Translations under genes and position numbers: made by a program
Part shown: positions 3,812 through 23,413 of the stretch, in pieces
Position numbering within the stretch: position 1 is the first letter of the stretch
Layout of the letters: each line of letters begins with the position of its first letter
DNA from: a virus
Length of the DNA: 64,000 nucleotides
IMG/VR virus record: IMGVR_UViG_3300027870_000002
Coordinates: 1 to 64,000 of that record
Reading direction: 5' to 3' (one strand)
The notes under the pieces: model-generated
Database searches by the model: none
Told to the model about the DNA's origin: nothing
Seen by the model: the letters and a program-made list of their open reading frames with translations, nothing else

Positions 3812-4022
3812 TTGAGCAATACCTCGCTTCAGCGCGCACCCACTGCCCGTGGGCATATACAGTCTCACTTCTCAGGCCGCCCTCTGCCCAGTACGATACA
3901 CCAAGACTTCCTCCAAAGCGTTGATCCAAAACATACTTTCCGTCGGTCTCTTTGGTAGTGGTGAAATCTTCATACCTATCAGTGCCGGTTTGCACTCTTA
4001 CGTAGATACATTTAGTTTTCAA
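3804..4022 (-). CDS. Hypothetical protein
   Basis: About 72 residues from TTG 4022; ATG 4055 is the alternative and would overlap the HNH gene by 44 bases. Sequence such as KCIYVRVQTGTDRYEDF and DGKYVLDQRFGGSLGVSYW suggests a small beta fold. No family recognised. Its stop overlaps the MazG-like start. Confidence 0.5.
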   Translation of the reverse strand: MKTKCIYVRVQTGTDRYEDFTTTKETDGKYVLDQRFGGSLGVSYWAEGGLRSETVYAHGQWVRAEARYCSID

Positions 4023-4398
4023 CTTTCTTTCTATCCTCTCGTGTCTTACCATCATGGCAGGGCTTACATAAAACTTGTAGGTTGTCTAGTTCACAGAACA
4101 ACGTCTTGACAAAATTAGGCAAGTCTTCCAATGTATTCAAACTACCGCAAGGTTTGATGTGATCTACTGTTACCTCACTATTCGCTTTCCACTTCTTGCA
4201 CTTGGCACATTGGTATTGCCATTTCAGACGCTTGTTCTTCTTGTCCTTGCTGGGGCGCTTGGCTGCATTCAGACAATCGTATATTGGCTTCCATCGCCTG
4301 CTTTTCTGGCGCAACGCCGCCCGAATAAAACTAAAAAACCCCGCCTTTGTCATTGTCCCTGAGGCGAATGGCCGCTCCACGTTGGCCCGTTTAGCCAT
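4012..4398 (-). CDS. HNH endonuclease
   Basis: 128 residues with the HNH arrangement: a CAKCKKW zinc knuckle, VDHIKPCG (the catalytic His), and LQVLCKPCHDGKT. A basic N-terminal third could bind DNA. Free-standing HNH proteins in phages act as homing endonucleases or packaging-associated nickases; nothing here separates these. It lies between a membrane protein and a hypothetical gene, away from the terminase, which favours a homing type. Confidence 0.85.
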   Translation of the reverse strand: MAKRANVERPFASGTMTKAGFFSFIRAALRQKSRRWKPIYDCLNAAKRPSKDKKNKRLKWQYQCAKCKKWKANSEVTVDHIKPCGSLNTLEDLPNFVKTLFCELDNLQVLCKPCHDGKTREDRKKVEN

Positions 4399-11458: not shown

Positions 11459-11889
11459 CAATAGTATTCCTCTCGTAGATGTTCTCTAATCATCATCAAT
11501 AGTTGCCCTAAATGATTGAAACCCTTACCTTCACACACGCCCCAATAGGTGTCGTGCCAAGTGTTGCCTTCAATCAATAGGACGTCACCAGTAGCCATAA
11601 GCTTTTGAGCATATTCATCTATGTGAAATTTCTGCAGTAGCAAATCGCACATCACAGACAGCTTAACTTGCTCCCAATCTTTACGAAGCGTTAGCCTATA
11701 TCCCTGAGCCTTGGCTCCATTAGGACTCACCTCCGCCTGCACACGCAGGCGTTCTTCTTTGTCCAACGTCTTCGCTGCCTGATATGCGTGCTCAATAGTC
11801 GGATATTTAACACCGTCTAATTGCACTACGGATGGAGCGAAGTTGGACAGCCATCTATACTCTCCTCCGAAGTAGGTTATGTCTGCCAA
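11458..11889 (-). CDS. NADAR-domain protein
   Basis: 143 residues from TTG 11889, eight bases after GGGAG. YFGGEYRWLSNFAP, YPTIEHAYQAAKTLD, the central Arg/Trp/Lys helix, and EGNTWHDTYWGVCEG match the NADAR/YbiA family in order and length. NADAR proteins hydrolyse N-glycosidic bonds; several remove ADP-ribose from guanine in DNA and counter DarT-type toxins. A counter-defence role in this phage is therefore reasonable but not shown. The start overlaps the end of the DNA polymerase gene by 13 bases. Confidence 0.88.
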   Translation of the reverse strand: MADITYFGGEYRWLSNFAPSVVQLDGVKYPTIEHAYQAAKTLDKEERLRVQAEVSPNGAKAQGYRLTLRKDWEQVKLSVMCDLLLQKFHIDEYAQKLMATGDVLLIEGNTWHDTYWGVCEGKGFNHLGQLLMMIREHLREEYY

Positions 11890-13727
11890 ACTAGTGTCTC
11901 CCTTTCATCTGGAAATGCCTTCACTTTATATCCCTTACCACTACCCCACTTATCCCCCCACTTAATCTCCGCTCCTAGCGGGACAGTGAATTCGTAGCCA
12001 TACACTTCTTCAAGAAAGTTGTACACGTCTGTTGTGAATGCGTGTGCAATAATCTCCTTGAGCCTGTCCATGTCTGCGTCTTCTCTCACTTCCATGATGA
12101 TAGAGTCATGCACTGTAAGGATGATACGCACAGGCCAATCCTTAAGCTTGCGCCACAAACTTACGAGAACGATGGGGATGATTTCTCCTGTAGCAAATCC
12201 CTGAATGGGATAGTTGAAGATGGAGGTGGTGTTAGTGATGAAGCCGCTCTTCGTCACCGTCGTGTCGGGCCAATAGAAGATGAGCCCGTACGGTGTACGT
12301 AGCTCCTTGTCTCTCAGAACATCATACGTCCAACTGGTTTGTGTCTGATAGATGCCCGAGTATTTCTTCTGGAAGAATTCGCAGTATTTCTTTTCTGCTG
12401 GATGCTGACCTCTGCCTCCGTACAACGGCTTGAATGTTTGAGGTTTGGCTGGCTGTCGCGCAGCCTTAGCATCAAGTCCCTTAAAATCTGGGTGCGTTCC
12501 ATCGTCTAGAAAAACTGCTGCTGTTGCGGAGTGGATGTCTGCGTCATTACAAATTTCTTCGTATGCCACATCATCGTGCCCCATGTCAGCTGCGACACGG
12601 AATTCAATTTGACTCCCGTCTGCCTCTAACATCACCCACCCGCTCTCCCGAGGAGTGACGAGTCTCTTATACTCGCGGGGCATGTTCTGCAACTGTGCTG
12701 TCAGCTCGTCTCCATTCTCGTCGATGAGCTTTCTTCCGCTACTGCTAAGTCTGTGTGTGCCTGTGCTTCCCTGATTGAACGCTCCGTGGAAAATACCATT
12801 ATGCTGGTCGCACACATGCTTGAAAAACTTAAGCGTCTTACTTAGCTTAGTGGCCAGTTTAGCCAGTTTAGAATACGTTGAAATAAAGTGGCGTTGTTCT
12901 TTCGTAGCGGCACGGAGCTGGGCGATAGTGCCTGCGGAAGCAGAACGGGCGCCGCCTGCTGTACGCACTGGGTTGCCGCGGCGGTCTTTGACTTCTTCAA
13001 ACCCGAGCGTGTCGTAGAGGAGGCTCGCGACTTGTTGCTTCGAGTTGTAGTTGATGGGCGCGATGCTTTCGAGTTCACGTTTCGTGTCTTCGTGTTCCTT
13101 GACGACTTGGTAGTATTCTTCTTCGACGGCTTGCTTGTCAAGATGGATTCCTTGTTTTTCAATGTCCGTTAGGACAGGGGTTAGTAGGCAACGAGCATAA
13201 ACTAGGTGAAGCTGTTCTCTCTCTACAATCTCCTCTCTTTGACAACGGAATAGCTCTAAAGTTCCCCGAACATCCTCATAACAATACGCATGTAACATGC
13301 TGCGAGGAATGTTGGCAGGATCGATGCCGAGCTTAATCATCCCACCTACTACATCTTCCTTGCCCTGCAGGCCCCTGCGCACGAGCATGGAATTCAAATC
13401 CTTTAAGAGCCGGCGATTTCCGGCGATGACCCACTCAGCTAACATCGTGTCCCACACGAGAACATCGTGTAGGTCGAGGCCTATACGGTCTAGCCAGCCA
13501 AGCTCAAACTTGGCGTTCTGTGCTACGATGAAGTCTACTTCCTGTACAGCCTTGAGCAATTCCTGCTGCTCGTATTCCTGTCCGAAGCAGCTGTGATATT
13601 TGTTGTCTCTGCTGTCATACCAGACAGCTAGGACAAGTTGGTTGGCGAGATTGAGAGGGCTTCCGAATTCAAGTGTGGTCGTTTCAAAGTCGATGACGAG
13701 GTATGTGCCTGTTAAGTATTTGTCGAT
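11877..13727 (-). CDS. Family A DNA polymerase with 3'-5' exonuclease domain, likely AUC start
   Basis: 616 residues if started at ATC 13727. Exonuclease motif I is IDFET (residues 12-16). Polymerase motif A is ADGSQIEFR (about 369-377), motif B runs from R424 through K428 to LYGG, and motif C is TVHDS (about 538-542). STGTHRLSS is the family TGRLSS loop. The first ATG/GTG/TTG in frame is TTG 13559, which would delete the exonuclease motif. Between the exonuclease motif and the upstream gene there is no conventional start; ATC 13727 lies five bases after a purine-rich AGGGG. A frameshift from the upstream gene is the alternative. Confidence 0.88.
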   Translation of the reverse strand: MDKYLTGTYLVIDFETTTLEFGSPLNLANQLVLAVWYDSRDNKYHSCFGQEYEQQELLKAVQEVDFIVAQNAKFELGWLDRIGLDLHDVLVWDTMLAEWVIAGNRRLLKDLNSMLVRRGLQGKEDVVGGMIKLGIDPANIPRSMLHAYCYEDVRGTLELFRCQREEIVEREQLHLVYARCLLTPVLTDIEKQGIHLDKQAVEEEYYQVVKEHEDTKRELESIAPINYNSKQQVASLLYDTLGFEEVKDRRGNPVRTAGGARSASAGTIAQLRAATKEQRHFISTYSKLAKLATKLSKTLKFFKHVCDQHNGIFHGAFNQGSTGTHRLSSSGRKLIDENGDELTAQLQNMPREYKRLVTPRESGWVMLEADGSQIEFRVAADMGHDDVAYEEICNDADIHSATAAVFLDDGTHPDFKGLDAKAARQPAKPQTFKPLYGGRGQHPAEKKYCEFFQKKYSGIYQTQTSWTYDVLRDKELRTPYGLIFYWPDTTVTKSGFITNTTSIFNYPIQGFATGEIIPIVLVSLWRKLKDWPVRIILTVHDSIIMEVREDADMDRLKEIIAHAFTTDVYNFLEEVYGYEFTVPLGAEIKWGDKWGSGKGYKVKAFPDERETLVWQT

Positions 13728-13888
13728 AGCGCCCCCTGTACTTCGAATTCTTCTATCAATGAATATTCTCCATTTCCCACTTCTAGTTGGACTTCTGCTA
13801 CCGAAGCATCTTCGTAGGTGGCGAAGACACCAACAACAGTGCTGCCCTCATAATCAAGTCCGTGCTGTAGAACATATACTTTGTTCAT
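13712..13888 (-). CDS. DUF7336-like small protein
   Basis: 58 residues from ATG 13888 (ATGA overlap with the preceding stop). MNKVYVLQHGLDYEGS, VVGVFATYEDASVAEVQLE, YSLIEEFEV resembles small phage and bacterial proteins of the VYVLxH/GVYSTxExA type; the family name is from memory. It overlaps the inferred start of the DNA polymerase by 16 bases and could be coupled to it. Confidence 0.6.
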   Translation of the reverse strand: MNKVYVLQHGLDYEGSTVVGVFATYEDASVAEVQLEVGNGEYSLIEEFEVQGALSTNT

Positions 13889-18018: not shown

Positions 18019-18580
18019 CGATATTCACCCGAAGCCTACTAAATCGCGTCTTGACTTGTTTAATTGCATTTGCAAAAGTACGCTTGGTCCAACTGAGGGT
18101 AGGCGGCGTAATGGGCATGTTCCTAAGAATATGTGTACTGTGCAGATATCTGGAGTTGGTGATAAGAAGCATCACCATTAGCAAACTGGAGCCCGGATGT
18201 ACAGGGTTCTCAAATAAAGGGGAGCACATGTATGTCCATTTTTTCCCGGCCACAATGGCCGCCATAATGTCCCCCGTACAGGCGGTAATGGCGGTTTCCT
18301 TAACTATGGCGTTTCCACGTAAAGGCGACAGATCGAGATGCCGCTCCAGACTGCTTGTGTTATTCAAATTGTCTGAAAGGATAACACTACTATTTCCAAA
18401 TTTCGCTATGAATGCCTTCATAAACGCGTCAGAATTTACAACCGCCGTGAGATGCTCCTTTGAAGTGAGGGGCCCTACAACCTTCAAGAAAGCAATATCA
18501 TTAAGCCCGCAGTTGCTTGAGCACTGCTTCGCGTACCCTCCAATACTAAACTTCTTATCTTCAAAATAAAATTCAGACAT
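17921..18580 (-). CDS. Hypothetical protein overlapping the primase
   Basis: 219 residues. N-terminal half with several Gly/Cys (SIGGYAKQCSSNCGLNDIAF), a central stretch TACTGDIMAAIVAGKKWTYM, and a Thr/Ser/Lys-rich C-terminus which overlaps the primase by 98 bases. No family recognised. It lies between the amidotransferase and the primase, so could serve either process. Confidence 0.55.
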   Translation of the reverse strand: MSEFYFEDKKFSIGGYAKQCSSNCGLNDIAFLKVVGPLTSKEHLTAVVNSDAFMKAFIAKFGNSSVILSDNLNNTSSLERHLDLSPLRGNAIVKETAITACTGDIMAAIVAGKKWTYMCSPLFENPVHPGSSLLMVMLLITNSRYLHSTHILRNMPITPPTLSWTKRTFANAIKQVKTRFSRLRVNIDDRFKEPSKVDSPAVGAGTAQQTEMPLVQGWS

Positions 18581-20019
18581 TACACATTACCCATTAGAGC
18601 CGGATCACGACAGCATGTTGCACAAATCGGATAGGCGCCTGCGCCTGACGTGTGCCACCCTAGATGAGGAGCATCGGCCAAACTAATGTTGCAGGTGCAG
18701 TTGCTACACCCATCCTTTACCAAGCTGAGAAATTCACCGACAGTCACAAGCTTACCTCGTGGCCCTTTAACACCGGCCGCCCAAGGAATGTCATCTAAGT
18801 CATCTAAATCTGCAAGCGTTGGCGGCTCTTCTGTTTTAGATTCCTTGCGCTCACGCTCTTCATTTGTAAAGAAAGACACGTCAGGAGGAGACAGGATGAT
18901 TACAGACTGGCATATCCCCGTCTTCTTGTCGATGATGTTTCGCATACCGATGACATTGCACAGAACGCGGTCTGCATCACGCACATTTTCCATCACTGTT
19001 TGAGACATGCTGCGAATCACCGCGTCCTTGATGATTGCAGCCTCATCATCGACCTCAGTGATTAGTTCGCCACGCAAGTCCCAGCGCTGTTGATTAGTGG
19101 TGCCAACAGATTCTCTTGCAATCTCTGCCCGCGAGAAAAAGAATTCTACCTTCTCCATGTGCTTAAACCCACTCTTGTTCAGAGCTGTGGGGGTATAGAG
19201 GTCTTCCACTAGAAGGTTGGCGTTGTCAGTTACCAGTCGCGAAGACCCGCTAGGCCGAAGATGCTCCCGTGGAGCGTGGGCAGTTGCAACGGCGCGCTTG
19301 GGTTCTGGTACAGCTTCCACAGCATACTGTCGCAAATCTCCTCGCGGATCAAACGTATAGATTTGCCCCTTCTCTGGGTAAACTGGGCGCTCGATAGCCA
19401 AGCCATTGCGGGAAGCCAGAGCATACAACATCTGGGCTTCTGATGCAATCAGCATCTGGTTCTTGCCATCAACGTATGCCCAGTGAATGGGGCGGCCACC
19501 ATTAGCAGCGATATGAATGCGGTTGTCTGGAGTGCTAGCCCAAACAAGGGCGTAGGCACCATGCAGATGATTAGCCATAGCATCCAGTGCGCCGTGTTTG
19601 GCAATCTTGTAGTAGAGCCAGTCACTGTCAACCTCGAAGCTGACATTATCCTCTTTGCGCATCCATGTATTCAACGTGCCGTTGTGCACGCCGATAATCA
19701 TACCGTCATCAGTGTAGTGCTCAAACGGATGAGCATTCTCTTGAGAGACAGTACCATGTGTTGCAGCACGATGGTGCATGATGGTGGCAAGGCTAGTGTC
19801 TGCATCCTTGAAGAAATCTTGTGCCCGCTTGTTGCGAGCAAAGTGGTAACCATCCACGTCAAGCTTGTGGTGGCGAATGTTCCATCCCTTATTCACCTGA
19901 AACACGCCAGTGCTGTCGTCGCCTCTCACCAAGCCCCAGATGGAGCCCTGAAGCATGTATTGTTGAAGCCCTTGGTTGTAGCCAGTGTCGCCGTTAATGA
20001 TGCCAAGAATTCCGCAAAT
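18580..20019 (-). CDS. Class II glutamine amidotransferase, AUU start
   Basis: 479 residues from ATT 20019. The class II (Ntn) glutaminase signature begins MCGILG, so Cys2 becomes the N-terminal nucleophile after Met removal; further motifs are HHRAATHG, ENAHPF and GVHNGTLN. Between the in-frame stop 20034-20032 and the Cys codon the only codons are GGA GAA AGC GTC ATT, and AAGGAG lies eight bases before ATT. It would supply ammonia from glutamine. The C-terminal half has no recognised synthetase and ends in Cys clusters (CSNCTC, CATCC). Adjacent amidoligase and GGCT genes point to an amide-bond pathway of the phiEco32 type. Confidence 0.88.
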   Translation of the reverse strand: MCGILGIINGDTGYNQGLQQYMLQGSIWGLVRGDDSTGVFQVNKGWNIRHHKLDVDGYHFARNKRAQDFFKDADTSLATIMHHRAATHGTVSQENAHPFEHYTDDGMIIGVHNGTLNTWMRKEDNVSFEVDSDWLYYKIAKHGALDAMANHLHGAYALVWASTPDNRIHIAANGGRPIHWAYVDGKNQMLIASEAQMLYALASRNGLAIERPVYPEKGQIYTFDPRGDLRQYAVEAVPEPKRAVATAHAPREHLRPSGSSRLVTDNANLLVEDLYTPTALNKSGFKHMEKVEFFFSRAEIARESVGTTNQQRWDLRGELITEVDDEAAIIKDAVIRSMSQTVMENVRDADRVLCNVIGMRNIIDKKTGICQSVIILSPPDVSFFTNEERERKESKTEEPPTLADLDDLDDIPWAAGVKGPRGKLVTVGEFLSLVKDGCSNCTCNISLADAPHLGWHTSGAGAYPICATCCRDPALMGNV

Positions 20020-20031
20020 GACGCTTTCTCC

Positions 20032-21201
20032 TTAAATGTTGTAGTCTTCGTCAAACACATCATGAAATTCGTCCACAACCGCTTCGCGCATCTCAGGCTC
20101 TGGCGCTCGGTCTTGCAACAAAACTTGGTTGTCGCGTCTTACCATTACACGCTGTGCATTCCTCATAGCATCTATGGCCCGCTGCACCGGGTCGCCTTCA
20201 AATATGTCTACACCTACACGCCCACCTCTCAGGGGAATGCCTTGCGGACGGGCTGGTTCTGCCACCGCCTCTTTCGTCTTTACCTTAGCCGGCTTAGCCA
20301 CACGCCCGCGCTTGCTTAGCAAGAACGGATTGTCCGGCTCGTTCCACATATAGGCAGGGACTGGCTTCTTGCTGTGAAGAATGCGCAGGTGTCGTGCATC
20401 TGCAATGGCTGACATCACATCTTCTTTCCGCACGTATGGCAAAATTGCCTTGCTCGCCGTAGTAAAAACCACATCAACTAAAGCACCCAGCCCATTGGCA
20501 TTTAGATAGTCGACAGGATCGACATTAACTTCCTTGCCAAACTTGCGAAAGCTGGTGCAGATGTTTACCCAGTCGAGGATGCGCTGCTTGTCAAACGTCG
20601 TCGGCAGATGCCGAAACTCTAGGGTCCCCTGTGTGTACAGAGGGATGAAGTTGATTGCCTGATACTTTGAGAACGCCCGATCGCGGGGTAAATTGTTCTT
20701 AGCCCATCCGTAAAGCAGCTGTGAAATGCCGCCAAAATCTCGCTGGCTAAGACAGATGGGGTCGCAGAAGCCGCAGGCTTCGCGCCATTCACCAGCGAAA
20801 CGAAACAATGCCTTCTCAAAAAGAATGTAAGAGAGGACACAGTTCAAGAATTCTGTGTTGTTATTCTCATTCATGTCAGTCATATCAACATGAAGGTGGA
20901 TGCCGGCACGGGGGTAGCCAACATCGAAGTTGTTTTTGATTGCGAAGTCACAGAACGTGTTAATAGCCTCACGTATCTGGCTCCCAACCATCCCACCGTT
21001 GGTGGTGAATTCCATTCCATTGTTGCGCAGACTATCGTCTCTGTGGGGGGTCCAGTCTGAAATAGAATTCTTCGTCACTGGAATGTTGCACGCCTCCACC
21101 TCTACTTCAATACCCACCTTGCAGAATGGATCGACAAGAGAGGTGTCTTGCGCGGGCACCTTATGCACCTTGTGACCAAACACATTTCCTAATGCACTCA
21201 T
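20032..21201 (-). CDS. Amidoligase (Amidoligase_2-type COOH-NH2 ligase)
   Basis: 389 residues. GIEVEVEACN near residue 31, a central SLRNNGMEFTTNGG, GIHLHVDM and GTLEFRHLP are the glutamine-synthetase-like Glu/His/Arg motifs of the amidoligase family. These enzymes join a carboxylate to an amine with ATP. The last 100 residues are a basic/Pro linker with an acidic end (DEFHDVFDEDYNI). The TAA is followed directly by the Shine-Dalgarno of the amidotransferase. Confidence 0.85.
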   Translation of the reverse strand: MSALGNVFGHKVHKVPAQDTSLVDPFCKVGIEVEVEACNIPVTKNSISDWTPHRDDSLRNNGMEFTTNGGMVGSQIREAINTFCDFAIKNNFDVGYPRAGIHLHVDMTDMNENNNTEFLNCVLSYILFEKALFRFAGEWREACGFCDPICLSQRDFGGISQLLYGWAKNNLPRDRAFSKYQAINFIPLYTQGTLEFRHLPTTFDKQRILDWVNICTSFRKFGKEVNVDPVDYLNANGLGALVDVVFTTASKAILPYVRKEDVMSAIADARHLRILHSKKPVPAYMWNEPDNPFLLSKRGRVAKPAKVKTKEAVAEPARPQGIPLRGGRVGVDIFEGDPVQRAIDAMRNAQRVMVRRDNQVLLQDRAPEPEMREAVVDEFHDVFDEDYNI

Positions 21202-21560
21202 TGCTTACTCCAGTCGCCGCTTGTCACAACCTTGTGTAGAGAAAGCGTATCATCGTGGTCCATAGTGTACACCCACGCGGGGCCGCCAGACGTTTCCACC
21301 TTCTGGCGCTGATAGAAGTGGGGATGGCCTTCCAGTCCGTCCAGATTGCGCAGTGTTGGCGCATCCACTTGATACAACTCCAAATGTAGGTCGGTATTAC
21401 CGTGCACACTGATGGCAGGAAAGGGTCCAAGAGAGTACATCGTGCCACGCAACTTGGCGTTACCCAAAAACTCTGATGATTCAAGCAGACGGTGATTACC
21501 GTAGCCCTTGCGCAGTGTGCCATACACTCCAACAACAGCAGGGAACATTACATCATTCAT
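21198..21560 (-). CDS. Gamma-glutamylcyclotransferase (GGCT/AIG2-like)
   Basis: 120 residues. VYGTLRKGYGNHRLL (YGxLR), GPFPAISVHG, and LDGLEGHPHFYQRQKVE with the catalytic Glu define the GGCT fold. The family cyclises gamma-glutamyl groups and releases amines, so in this cluster it could trim or reverse an amide product. ATGA overlaps on both sides show tight coupling. Confidence 0.88.
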   Translation of the reverse strand: MNDVMFPAVVGVYGTLRKGYGNHRLLESSEFLGNAKLRGTMYSLGPFPAISVHGNTDLHLELYQVDAPTLRNLDGLEGHPHFYQRQKVETSGGPAWVYTMDHDDTLSLHKVVTSGDWSKQ

Positions 21561-22168
21561 GAAAGCTCCTCATTAAAAAGCGCGGCTGCATCTTTGTTAT
21601 CCCACACCCACTTAACACCGTCCTTGCTGTAAGCTACACGTTCGTTCTTAAACATGATAATGAACGGAGCTTCCTTATGCTGGCCCAGACACACGGCCCA
21701 GTTGTGGGACAGGGCAAATCCAACAGACGATGGCTCATCAATCAGGCGCTTTACGGCGTCGCTAAGGCGCATGAATGACGGAGCAAATATCTGTTTAGCC
21801 ACCTGAGAGTTTAGCTGTGCATTGTGCAACACCTCTTGCCGCACACCCAGCACGTCGTACACACCGAGAATTTCTGAAGGGACGGACACAACAATCGCAG
21901 GCGGAATCACACCCTTCTCGCGCCGACGGCCAGCATGGCGTTCGATGTAAAACAAATGCGCGCCATTGTTGATAGAGCGAAAGCCGAGCTTGGGGGTTTG
22001 GACGTGCTTCCAGTCAAGCTCCTCCAAAGGAATAGAGGATTTGTCTGACAAGTTGATGCAACTGCCTTGGCCATTACCAATCACCTGCACCACGTCCCCT
22101 GTGTGAGGATGCAGTATCCACGCCCCAGTATAATACCCTAAAAAATCTGCTTTTGCATATCGGTGCAT
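21557..22168 (-). CDS. Hypothetical protein of the amidoligase cluster
   Basis: 203 residues from ATG 22168. Sequence begins YAKADFLGYYTGAWILHPHTGDVVQV and ends in a Trp/Asp-rich tail. No family recognised. It is sandwiched and coupled between GGCT and the type-2 ligase, making it a candidate substrate carrier or accessory factor (inference). Confidence 0.6.
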   Translation of the reverse strand: MHRYAKADFLGYYTGAWILHPHTGDVVQVIGNGQGSCINLSDKSSIPLEELDWKHVQTPKLGFRSINNGAHLFYIERHAGRRREKGVIPPAIVVSVPSEILGVYDVLGVRQEVLHNAQLNSQVAKQIFAPSFMRLSDAVKRLIDEPSSVGFALSHNWAVCLGQHKEAPFIIMFKNERVAYSKDGVKWVWDNKDAAALFNEELS

Positions 22169-23004
22169 TACACTTCCTCTGGTAGTTCACAAAAATCGTG
22201 CCACTGCTGCGAGATGTTATCGTACTGGTTTCCAGCAATGCGCGACGTGTTAACTGCCTGCTGAATCGTTGCCCAGTCCACCTCTTGGTGGAATCTGCGG
22301 AATTCGTTCGGCCTGCTAACAATCGTCTGAGCTGCTAGGATGATGCGCTCTGCCCTCACTAGGTTGTTCATCCAATACGCCGACGGCGTGCGGTATTCCA
22401 CACCGTAAGGCTTGGAACGATAGAGGCCCGCTAGCCCATAAAACTGGCGCCGCAGGGGCTGGGGATCGGCACCATCCATGACGTCAAACATGTACGTCAA
22501 ATCGAGGCCCTTGATGAGAGCCCATTCTGGTATGAAGCCGTCTTCGCCCGGCTCTTTCTTTTCATATCCAATGTGGATGTGCCCACCAAAGAAGCGCGAC
22601 ATGCCGAACTTCTTGGGGTCGGGAGGGAGGCGCCGTGCCCCACGCTCATATGCCAAGTAATCGGGGTCACAGCCGAAGGTGTTGGCCTTTGGGTGCTGCA
22701 GCTGGGCTGCCTCAAAGGTGGCGCCGTCTGTCACGTAGTAGGAATGTCCGACTCCGAAGTATTTCCCCACCACTGGCTGTAACTCTTTCATGGCAGTAGC
22801 CATGGCGTTGCGGAACTTCTTCGGTTCAACGGGGGCGATATTGAACTCAAGAGCAACACCGTCTTCTTGAATTTTAAGTCCCACTTTTGAACCTTCAACA
22901 GCAAAGGGCTCTTGCTTTGTGCCCGGCACCACGTCAACGCATGGAACAAAACGCGAGCCACTAATGATTGCCAGCTCTGGATCGCAGCCGCAAGTAATCT
23001 TCAT
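22168..23004 (-). CDS. phiEco32-like COOH-NH2 ligase type 2
   Basis: 278 residues from ATG 23004. MKITCGCDPELAII (the GxDPE opening), EDGVALEFNIAP, GGHIHIGYEKKE and GVEYRTPSAYW are the conserved blocks of the phage ligase family named after phiEco32. ATP-dependent amide-bond formation is predicted from the glutamine-synthetase-like fold; the substrate is unknown. Confidence 0.88.
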   Translation of the reverse strand: MKITCGCDPELAIISGSRFVPCVDVVPGTKQEPFAVEGSKVGLKIQEDGVALEFNIAPVEPKKFRNAMATAMKELQPVVGKYFGVGHSYYVTDGATFEAAQLQHPKANTFGCDPDYLAYERGARRLPPDPKKFGMSRFFGGHIHIGYEKKEPGEDGFIPEWALIKGLDLTYMFDVMDGADPQPLRRQFYGLAGLYRSKPYGVEYRTPSAYWMNNLVRAERIILAAQTIVSRPNEFRRFHQEVDWATIQQAVNTSRIAGNQYDNISQQWHDFCELPEEV

Positions 23005-23005
23005 A

Positions 23006-23413
23006 CTAAGCACTCTCCTTTGGAGTTAAGGAAGCAGGTTGTGGAATCCACGGATGCCATTCTTTCTTTTCCTTGGCAGGATGTATCACCTTGTTAATAG
23101 CGGCGGCAATCTGCTTGCGCAAAGTGCGGCGCTCTTTCTTTGAAGGCTTGCGCAAAAACTGCTCACGCAATGTGGCGGCCATGTCGAGGTTGGGGCCTTC
23201 TTTATCAATACTACTATCACCAATCACCAGCTTGTATTGACTTGGGTCTTTGCGCCAGTCGGCCGTCCACACGCCCGTCAAGATTTCTCCTGTTTGCAGG
23301 GCGCCGCGGCATCTTGCCATGGCCTCTTCTTCTTTTTTAATCCACGCATACCCAAAACGCTTTCCTCCTTTGGGCGTTGTGACACGCATGATTGCGACAA
23401 GAGGCTCGCTCAT
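23006..23413 (-). CDS. Hypothetical protein of the amidoligase cluster
   Basis: 135 residues. VAIMRVTTPKGGKRFGYAW, then a basic C-terminal half rich in Lys/Arg (KPSKKERRTLRKQIAAAINK) ending with several Trp/Pro. No family recognised. Coupled to the RNA ligase stop by an ATGA-type overlap and to the type-2 ligase start. Confidence 0.6.
   Translation of the reverse strand: MSEPLVAIMRVTTPKGGKRFGYAWIKKEEEAMARCRGALQTGEILTGVWTADWRKDPSQYKLVIGDSSIDKEGPNLDMAATLREQFLRKPSKKERRTLRKQIAAAINKVIHPAKEKKEWHPWIPQPASLTPKESA

Follow-up and report, generated by a model that had tools for sequence, protein, structure and literature searches.

A probable AUU start codon on a phage class II glutamine amidotransferase and the recurrence of AUU and AUC starts in its family

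The class II glutamine amidotransferase (GATase) encoded in the window, i.e. the whole 64,000-nt stretch analysed here (positions 1 to 64,000 of IMG/VR record IMGVR_UViG_3300027870_000002), very probably starts at the AUU at 20019-20017, directly ahead of its catalytic cysteine. The phage assignment is correct, as the window forms part of a virus record with 65,201 bases. The fuller explanation can be held with good confidence as well: the AUU would be a real start belonging to a recurrent class of AUU and AUC starts, which in several relatives would have arisen by insertion of an HNH endonuclease gene. All evidence comes from sequence, and the family survey consists mostly of metagenome contigs. 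The bare observation of an AUU start is not wholly new, since the GATase of phage phiEco32 is already annotated from ATT. What is new is the recurrence of AUU and AUC, the hairpin and the link to homing.

Start region and gene in the window

Table 1. Features of the predicted GATase start region and the neighbouring genes in the window
Feature	Position	Strand	Basis or remark
Class II glutamine amidotransferase (GATase)	18580..20019	-	479 codons, AUU to stop; Pfam, PHROG, alignment
Predicted AUU start codon	20017..20019	-	Sequence, family survey, sister L135
TGC, codon of the nucleophile Cys2	20014..20016	-	C2 invariant in alignment
Shine-Dalgarno sequence AAGGAG	20028..20033	-	8 nt ahead of AUU; register 7
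TAA in frame with the GATase, stop of the upstream amidoligase gene	20032..20034	-	
First in-frame ATG, likely choice of a gene caller	19954..19956	-	Predicted to be wrong; loses Cys2
Amidoligase (Amidoligase_2)	20032..21201	-	Pfam E 1.5e-5; PHROG 7469 E 6e-34
Gamma-glutamyl cyclotransferase, AIG2-like (GGACT)	21198..21560	-	Pfam E 4e-21
Small conserved cluster protein	21557..22168	-	PHROG 11055 E 3e-4
phiEco32-like COOH-NH2 ligase	22168..23013	-	Pfam E 3e-8; PHROG 3815 E 6e-42

The minus-strand frame reads TAA(20034) GGA GAA AGC GTC ATT(20019) TGC(20016) GGA ATT CTT and continues without interruption from ATT to the stop at 18580. As stated in the original prediction, AAGGAG lies eight bases before ATT and not a single ATG, GTG, TTG or CTG is present between the in-frame TAA and the Cys codon; both points were confirmed in the window sequence. 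The earliest ATG, GTG or TTG in this frame is the ATG at 19956, and starting there drops 21 residues including the Cys. The register of the Shine-Dalgarno (SD) sequence is shared with most relatives that start at AUU or AUC.

Based on its sequence, the product belongs to Pfam GATase_6 (E 6e-12), with a match to PHROG 18128 that begins at profile position 1 and one to PHROG 4736 that begins at position 2. The class II glutaminase motifs RG, H.R.AT.G, AHPF, HNG and DS are all present, in alignment columns that are invariant or nearly so. TGC follows immediately 3' of AUU, and the Cys it encodes is invariant in the family. With COOH-NH2 ligase, amidoligase and GGACT genes as neighbours, the gene is a member of a phiEco32-type amidoligase/GATase cluster. 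During translation, the initiator tRNA would read AUU with the help of the strong SD. Removal of fMet would then leave Cys2 as the N-terminal nucleophile, as in established class II biochemistry.

Two other genes of the window may be mentioned here. A free-standing HNH endonuclease gene is located at 4012-4398 (minus strand). The DNA polymerase gene (11877-13760, minus strand) shows no ATG, GTG or TTG ahead of exonuclease motif I (YLVIDFETT), and this motif is lost if the gene is started at the first TTG (13559). Candidate starts are ATT 13760-13758, with GGAG 7 nt upstream, and ATC 13727-13725, with AGGGGG just upstream. In the homologous polymerase frame of StenR_269, GAGGAGGACTA-ATT is found upstream of the annotated ATG.

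AUU and AUC starts across the family

Homologues were drawn from IMG/VR and GenBank phages using scans with sub-alignments, the alignment of all 11 homologues being too diverse, and the codon ahead of the Cys was read in 174 non-identical loci. In proportions carrying a small bias from one gathering scan, whose pattern contained [IM]CGI, this codon is ATG in 121 loci, ATT in 33, TTG in 9, ATC in 7, GTG in 2 and another codon in two. ATA and CTG never occur. A chance ATT ahead of the Cys is excluded because the codon is limited to start-type codons in 172 of the 174 homologues. The alignment of 11 distant phage homologues shows a common first residue; Cys2 is invariant, as are 25 further columns. 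Clustering at 75% protein identity gives 29 lineages with ATT or ATC and 111 with ATG, and AUU/AUC starts account for roughly a fifth of the lineages in this phage gene family. A tree of 148 members places L135 as the sister of the window (99% support), and L135 also has ATT. The proposal that AUU initiates the GATase directly ahead of the Cys is thus supported by the invariant Cys2, the survey and the sister lineage.

A sequencing or assembly error, with the window truly having ATG, would agree with a single metagenome record and with the ATG of most relatives. However, it is extremely unlikely, because L135 also has ATT, and ATT or ATC is found in 27 other lineages as well, including isolated, independently sequenced phages. 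Since no close DNA relative of the window was found, a single-base error at this very position is excluded by the sister lineage only. A comparison of the upstream codon in related phages had been put forward together with the original prediction, and it gave ATT or ATC in 29 lineages, including the sister of the window. ATG relatives combined with a sequencing error had been named as the outcome that would overturn it; many relatives do have ATG, yet this objection falls with the 29 AUU/AUC lineages.

Another possibility might be a propeptide. Readthrough of the TAA from the amidoligase, or a start further upstream, would produce a longer N-terminus which is cut autocatalytically to expose the Cys. 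Such processing occurs in some class II enzymes, e.g., Bacillus PurF, and the window, Vibrio phage 275E43-1 and the phiEco32 group all have the upstream stop in frame. However, the residue before the Cys would then vary freely, whereas the codons found are ATG, ATT, ATC, TTG and GTG, and an Ile at this site would also use the absent ATA. The strong SD at a fixed distance likewise argues against processing, as do the many AUU loci in which a stop precedes the AUU by one to seven codons with no intervening start codon. A propeptide is therefore most unlikely, and initiation at AUU is the preferred reading.

It was also predicted that a gene caller would remove the nucleophile, and this is what is seen in the annotations of several named phages. 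The GATase is annotated 174 nt downstream of the Cys-proximal start in EP335, 30 nt downstream in 275E43-1, about 111 nt downstream in O4 and 342 nt downstream in WFI101126.

The phiEco32 group belongs to the AUU set, with TAG AAA ATT TGT in every member examined, and the depositors of phiEco32, LAMP, Bas90 and SU10 set the GATase start at that ATT. For the GATase protein of Kuravirus SU10, mass spectrometry detected 9 peptides (PMC4281155). Among three genera of the group, the 48 nt ahead of AUU are 98-100% identical, compared to 72-77% for the coding region. The 80-nt spacer separating genes 84 and 83 (L012 2482-2562) contains a 9-codon mini-ORF with its own SD, ATG AAA GGG TTT ACC CTT CAG GTG GAT TAG, which ends three bases before AUU and does not differ among the three genera; upstream there is a second GC-rich hairpin. 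No discussion of the AUU start of the phiEco32-group GATase was found in open-access papers, which is weak evidence of novelty.

Spacing and hairpin set the AUU/AUC starts apart. The SD register is 7-8 in 26 of the 29 AUU/AUC lineages and ranges from 3 to 11 in ATG lineages. A short hairpin, its 3' arm closing immediately upstream of the SD at -14 to -17, is found in 16/29 AUU/AUC lineages versus 1/111 ATG lineages under a strict criterion (score of at least 6, register -14 to -17). Using 200 dinucleotide shuffles as the null, 1.3 lineages are expected by chance, and the shuffles never gave more than 5. All four Watson-Crick pairs are found at stem positions 1-5, indicating covariation. With 16-19 of the 29 AUU/AUC lineages carrying a hairpin that ends at about -15, the feature is common, not universal. 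The window, with a score of 2.2 before the GATase SD, is among the ten hairpin-less members.

In phiEco32, O4 and 275E43-1, the module of hairpin, SD and AUU or AUC, heading a long frame whose N-terminus is conserved, is found at a single place per genome, always the GATase gene. It was therefore rejected as a genome-wide feature. A DNA-only scan for AGGAGATGAGAAAATNTG gave four hairpin-bearing sites, all of them GATase starts with ATT or ATC, including a previously unseen GATase locus (L300). A search of bacterial genomes for AGGAGGATAGTCCCATT yielded no convincing coding start.

In 15/29 AUU/AUC lineages versus 3/111 ATG lineages, one of the three stop codons is found at -7, which hints at a possible coupling of termination and reinitiation. 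Reinitiation after a leader ORF was rejected as a general rule, a start codon in the frame ending at -7 being present in only some AUU loci. An N4-type promoter hairpin was rejected as well, as the transcript would begin within the SD. Ribosome bypass of the T4 gene 60 type, to which the GGA-UAG motif and the neighbouring endonuclease had pointed, was also discarded, as its product would be without the N-terminal Cys.

Probable homing endonuclease insertions and similar sites on other genes

On the tree, the AUU/AUC trait requires 27 changes. An HNH_3 domain is encoded by the gene directly upstream in 8 of 27 AUU/AUC loci, compared with none of 118 others, and an independent profile search gave comparable values (8/29 versus 0/119). 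The remaining 21 of the 29 AUU/AUC lineages have no adjacent endonuclease, so insertion may account for only part of the class.

Three pairs of near-identical proteins differ in their starts, namely L036 (ATG) and L037 (ATT), L104 (ATG) and L103 (ATC), and PA11 (TTG) and O4 (ATC). The inserts at the start measure about 548, about 542 and 228 nt, respectively. In each pair the insert is carried by the AUU/AUC allele, while the allele with ATG or TTG is empty. L037 and L103 keep the native SD and ATG, followed by the insert of roughly 540 nt ending in SD-AT[TC] and then by the Cys codon. Between nt 120 and 1200, the coding DNA of L103 and L104 shows 100% identity, against 77, 93, 97 and 93% in the first four 30-base blocks. 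This gradient is the pattern that would be expected of co-conversion around a homing site. Homing insertion is thus probably one cause of the AUU/AUC class in these relatives.

An insert at the ATG/Cys boundary with an HNH gene and a fairly constant 3' end is also typical of intron homing. In that case a self-splicing intron would be removed from the RNA, joining the native ATG to the Cys, and AUU would be the last codon of the intron. However, no match to a group I or II intron in Rfam was obtained in the insert loci of 20 relatives, and 228 nt (O4) or about 30 nt (phiEco32) leave little or no space for a ribozyme. In addition, the inserts share no common 5' end, an SD stands 8 nt ahead of AUU, and the window carries no insert whatever. 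An intron is accordingly regarded as very unlikely.

The AUU or AUC together with the hairpin might instead be a regulatory start which is selected for itself (with infC-like translation that is low or IF3-sensitive, or based on termination-reinitiation from the upstream gene), the HNH genes being later passengers. The phiEco32 group retains hairpin and AUU without any endonuclease, and the excess of stops at -7 suggests coupling. According to PMC2268962, non-canonical starts, and reinitiation without an SD, are inhibited when IF3 is raised, which would also suit such a start. However, the AUU/AUC alleles are the occupied ones in all three pairs, and HNH genes adjoin no canonical start. A regulatory origin is therefore considered rather unlikely, and insertion remains the preferred origin in several relatives.

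The insertion route could proceed as follows. An HNH homing endonuclease gene would insert between the native ATG and the Cys codon, with the native SD and ATG remaining upstream of the insert. The 3' end of the insert would provide a new site for initiation, with SD, 8-nt spacer and AUU or AUC, in many cases headed by a hairpin, and thereby restore the enzyme. The AUU or AUC may shield the occupied allele, since the target of the endonuclease, ATG-TGY, would be re-created if the 3' junction carried ATG. Alternatively, AUU might persist as a weak, IF3-sensitive start which is tolerated or even useful. The strong SD at a fixed distance, in many cases with the flanking hairpin, may offset rejection by IF3.

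For the window itself, the AUU may be the scar of an insertion or an independent switch. No HNH gene adjoins its GATase, the upstream neighbour being the amidoligase. A search of viral contigs by exact peptides gave neither a close relative of the window protein nor a close allele for comparison. The sister L135 has AUU and a hairpin, also with no endonuclease, and is the main point in favour of a scar left by an HNH insertion. Because the window is without both hairpin and endonuclease, this reading is put forward tentatively, as somewhat less probable than its converse.

Similar arrangements were observed on other genes. A scan for GGAGGATAGTCCNATT also matched a csrA homologue on a viral contig (L110), with AUU (3069-3067, minus strand) on its normal first codon, preceded by a hairpin and SD. 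The directly upstream ORF is an HNH_3 gene ending in GGA GGA TAG four bases ahead of AUU. Given the alternative TTG start one codon after AUU, this case is suggestive only. AUU starts with GGAGGATAG-N4-ATT were seen on a tail-fibre-like (L109), a DNA-ejection-like (L117) and an RNase H-like gene (L413). The L109 arrangement resembles that of csrA, with an upstream HNH-like ORF (recognised by eye and motif only, with no Pfam score) which ends four bases before AUU. A hairpin and AUU are also present at L117, from a DNA ejection family, and at L413, judged RNase H-like by eye, with no HNH gene at either. The ORFs upstream of L109 and L413 end in Gly-Gly-stop, and GGA GGA TAG provides both the SD and the stop at -7.

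It is conceivable, at slightly below even chances, that a mobile cassette of HNH gene, hairpin, SD and AUU/AUC inserts precisely after phage start codons and is not confined to one gene. Such a cassette would use the native ribosome site for the inserted frame, and the invaded gene would receive a non-AUG start. If this reading is true, AUU/AUC starts in phages are a common and systematically missed footprint of homing.

As Cys2 must be the N-terminus, start codons in the GATase family can be read from sequence alone. AUU and AUC starts do not appear to be freak events, being present in about a fifth of the lineages for one phage gene. The survey also exposes a systematic annotation error which deletes the catalytic residue in several named phages. 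The family offers natural AUU initiation sites for studying how discrimination by IF3 is overcome, and suggests a route by which a gene could be interrupted by selfish endonucleases right at the first codon and yet survive.

Comparison with known systems

E. coli infC (and pcnB) has an AUU start with an SD, as in the window, and the layout of infC, GGAGG-N8-AUU, equals that of the AUU/AUC class. The AUU of infC serves the autoregulation of IF3, whereas the GATase is a phage amidotransferase for which control by IF3 is putative. Unlike the GATase relatives, infC has no hairpin ending at -15 beside the SD and no mobile element. phiEco32 gp83 and its relatives share the gene family and the AUU-Cys start with the window, but have a conserved hairpin and the 9-codon mini-ORF before AUU, neither of which is present in the window.

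In Borrelia pncA (BBE22), a catalytic N-terminal residue missing from database entries is regained by starting at AUU (PMC13398362), as is proposed here for the GATase. Unlike the GATase class, this is a single bacterial gene, with neither recurrence as a class nor a hairpin or endonuclease.

Free-standing homing endonucleases of T4-like phages (mobA/gene 60, mobE of Aeh1 and seg43 of Aeromonas phage 25) insert into coding sequence of critical function, exploit expression signals upstream and leave tracts of co-conversion behind (PMC2988022). For seg43, a stable hairpin is located immediately upstream of the ribosome site and does not hide that site (PMC2988022). The invasion of critical sequence, the use of upstream signals and co-conversion appear to be shared with the GATase inserts. 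In the known T4-like cases, however, the gene is split internally into two polypeptides, whereas the GATase insert lies at codons 1-2, so that the protein would stay whole and gain a new non-AUG start.
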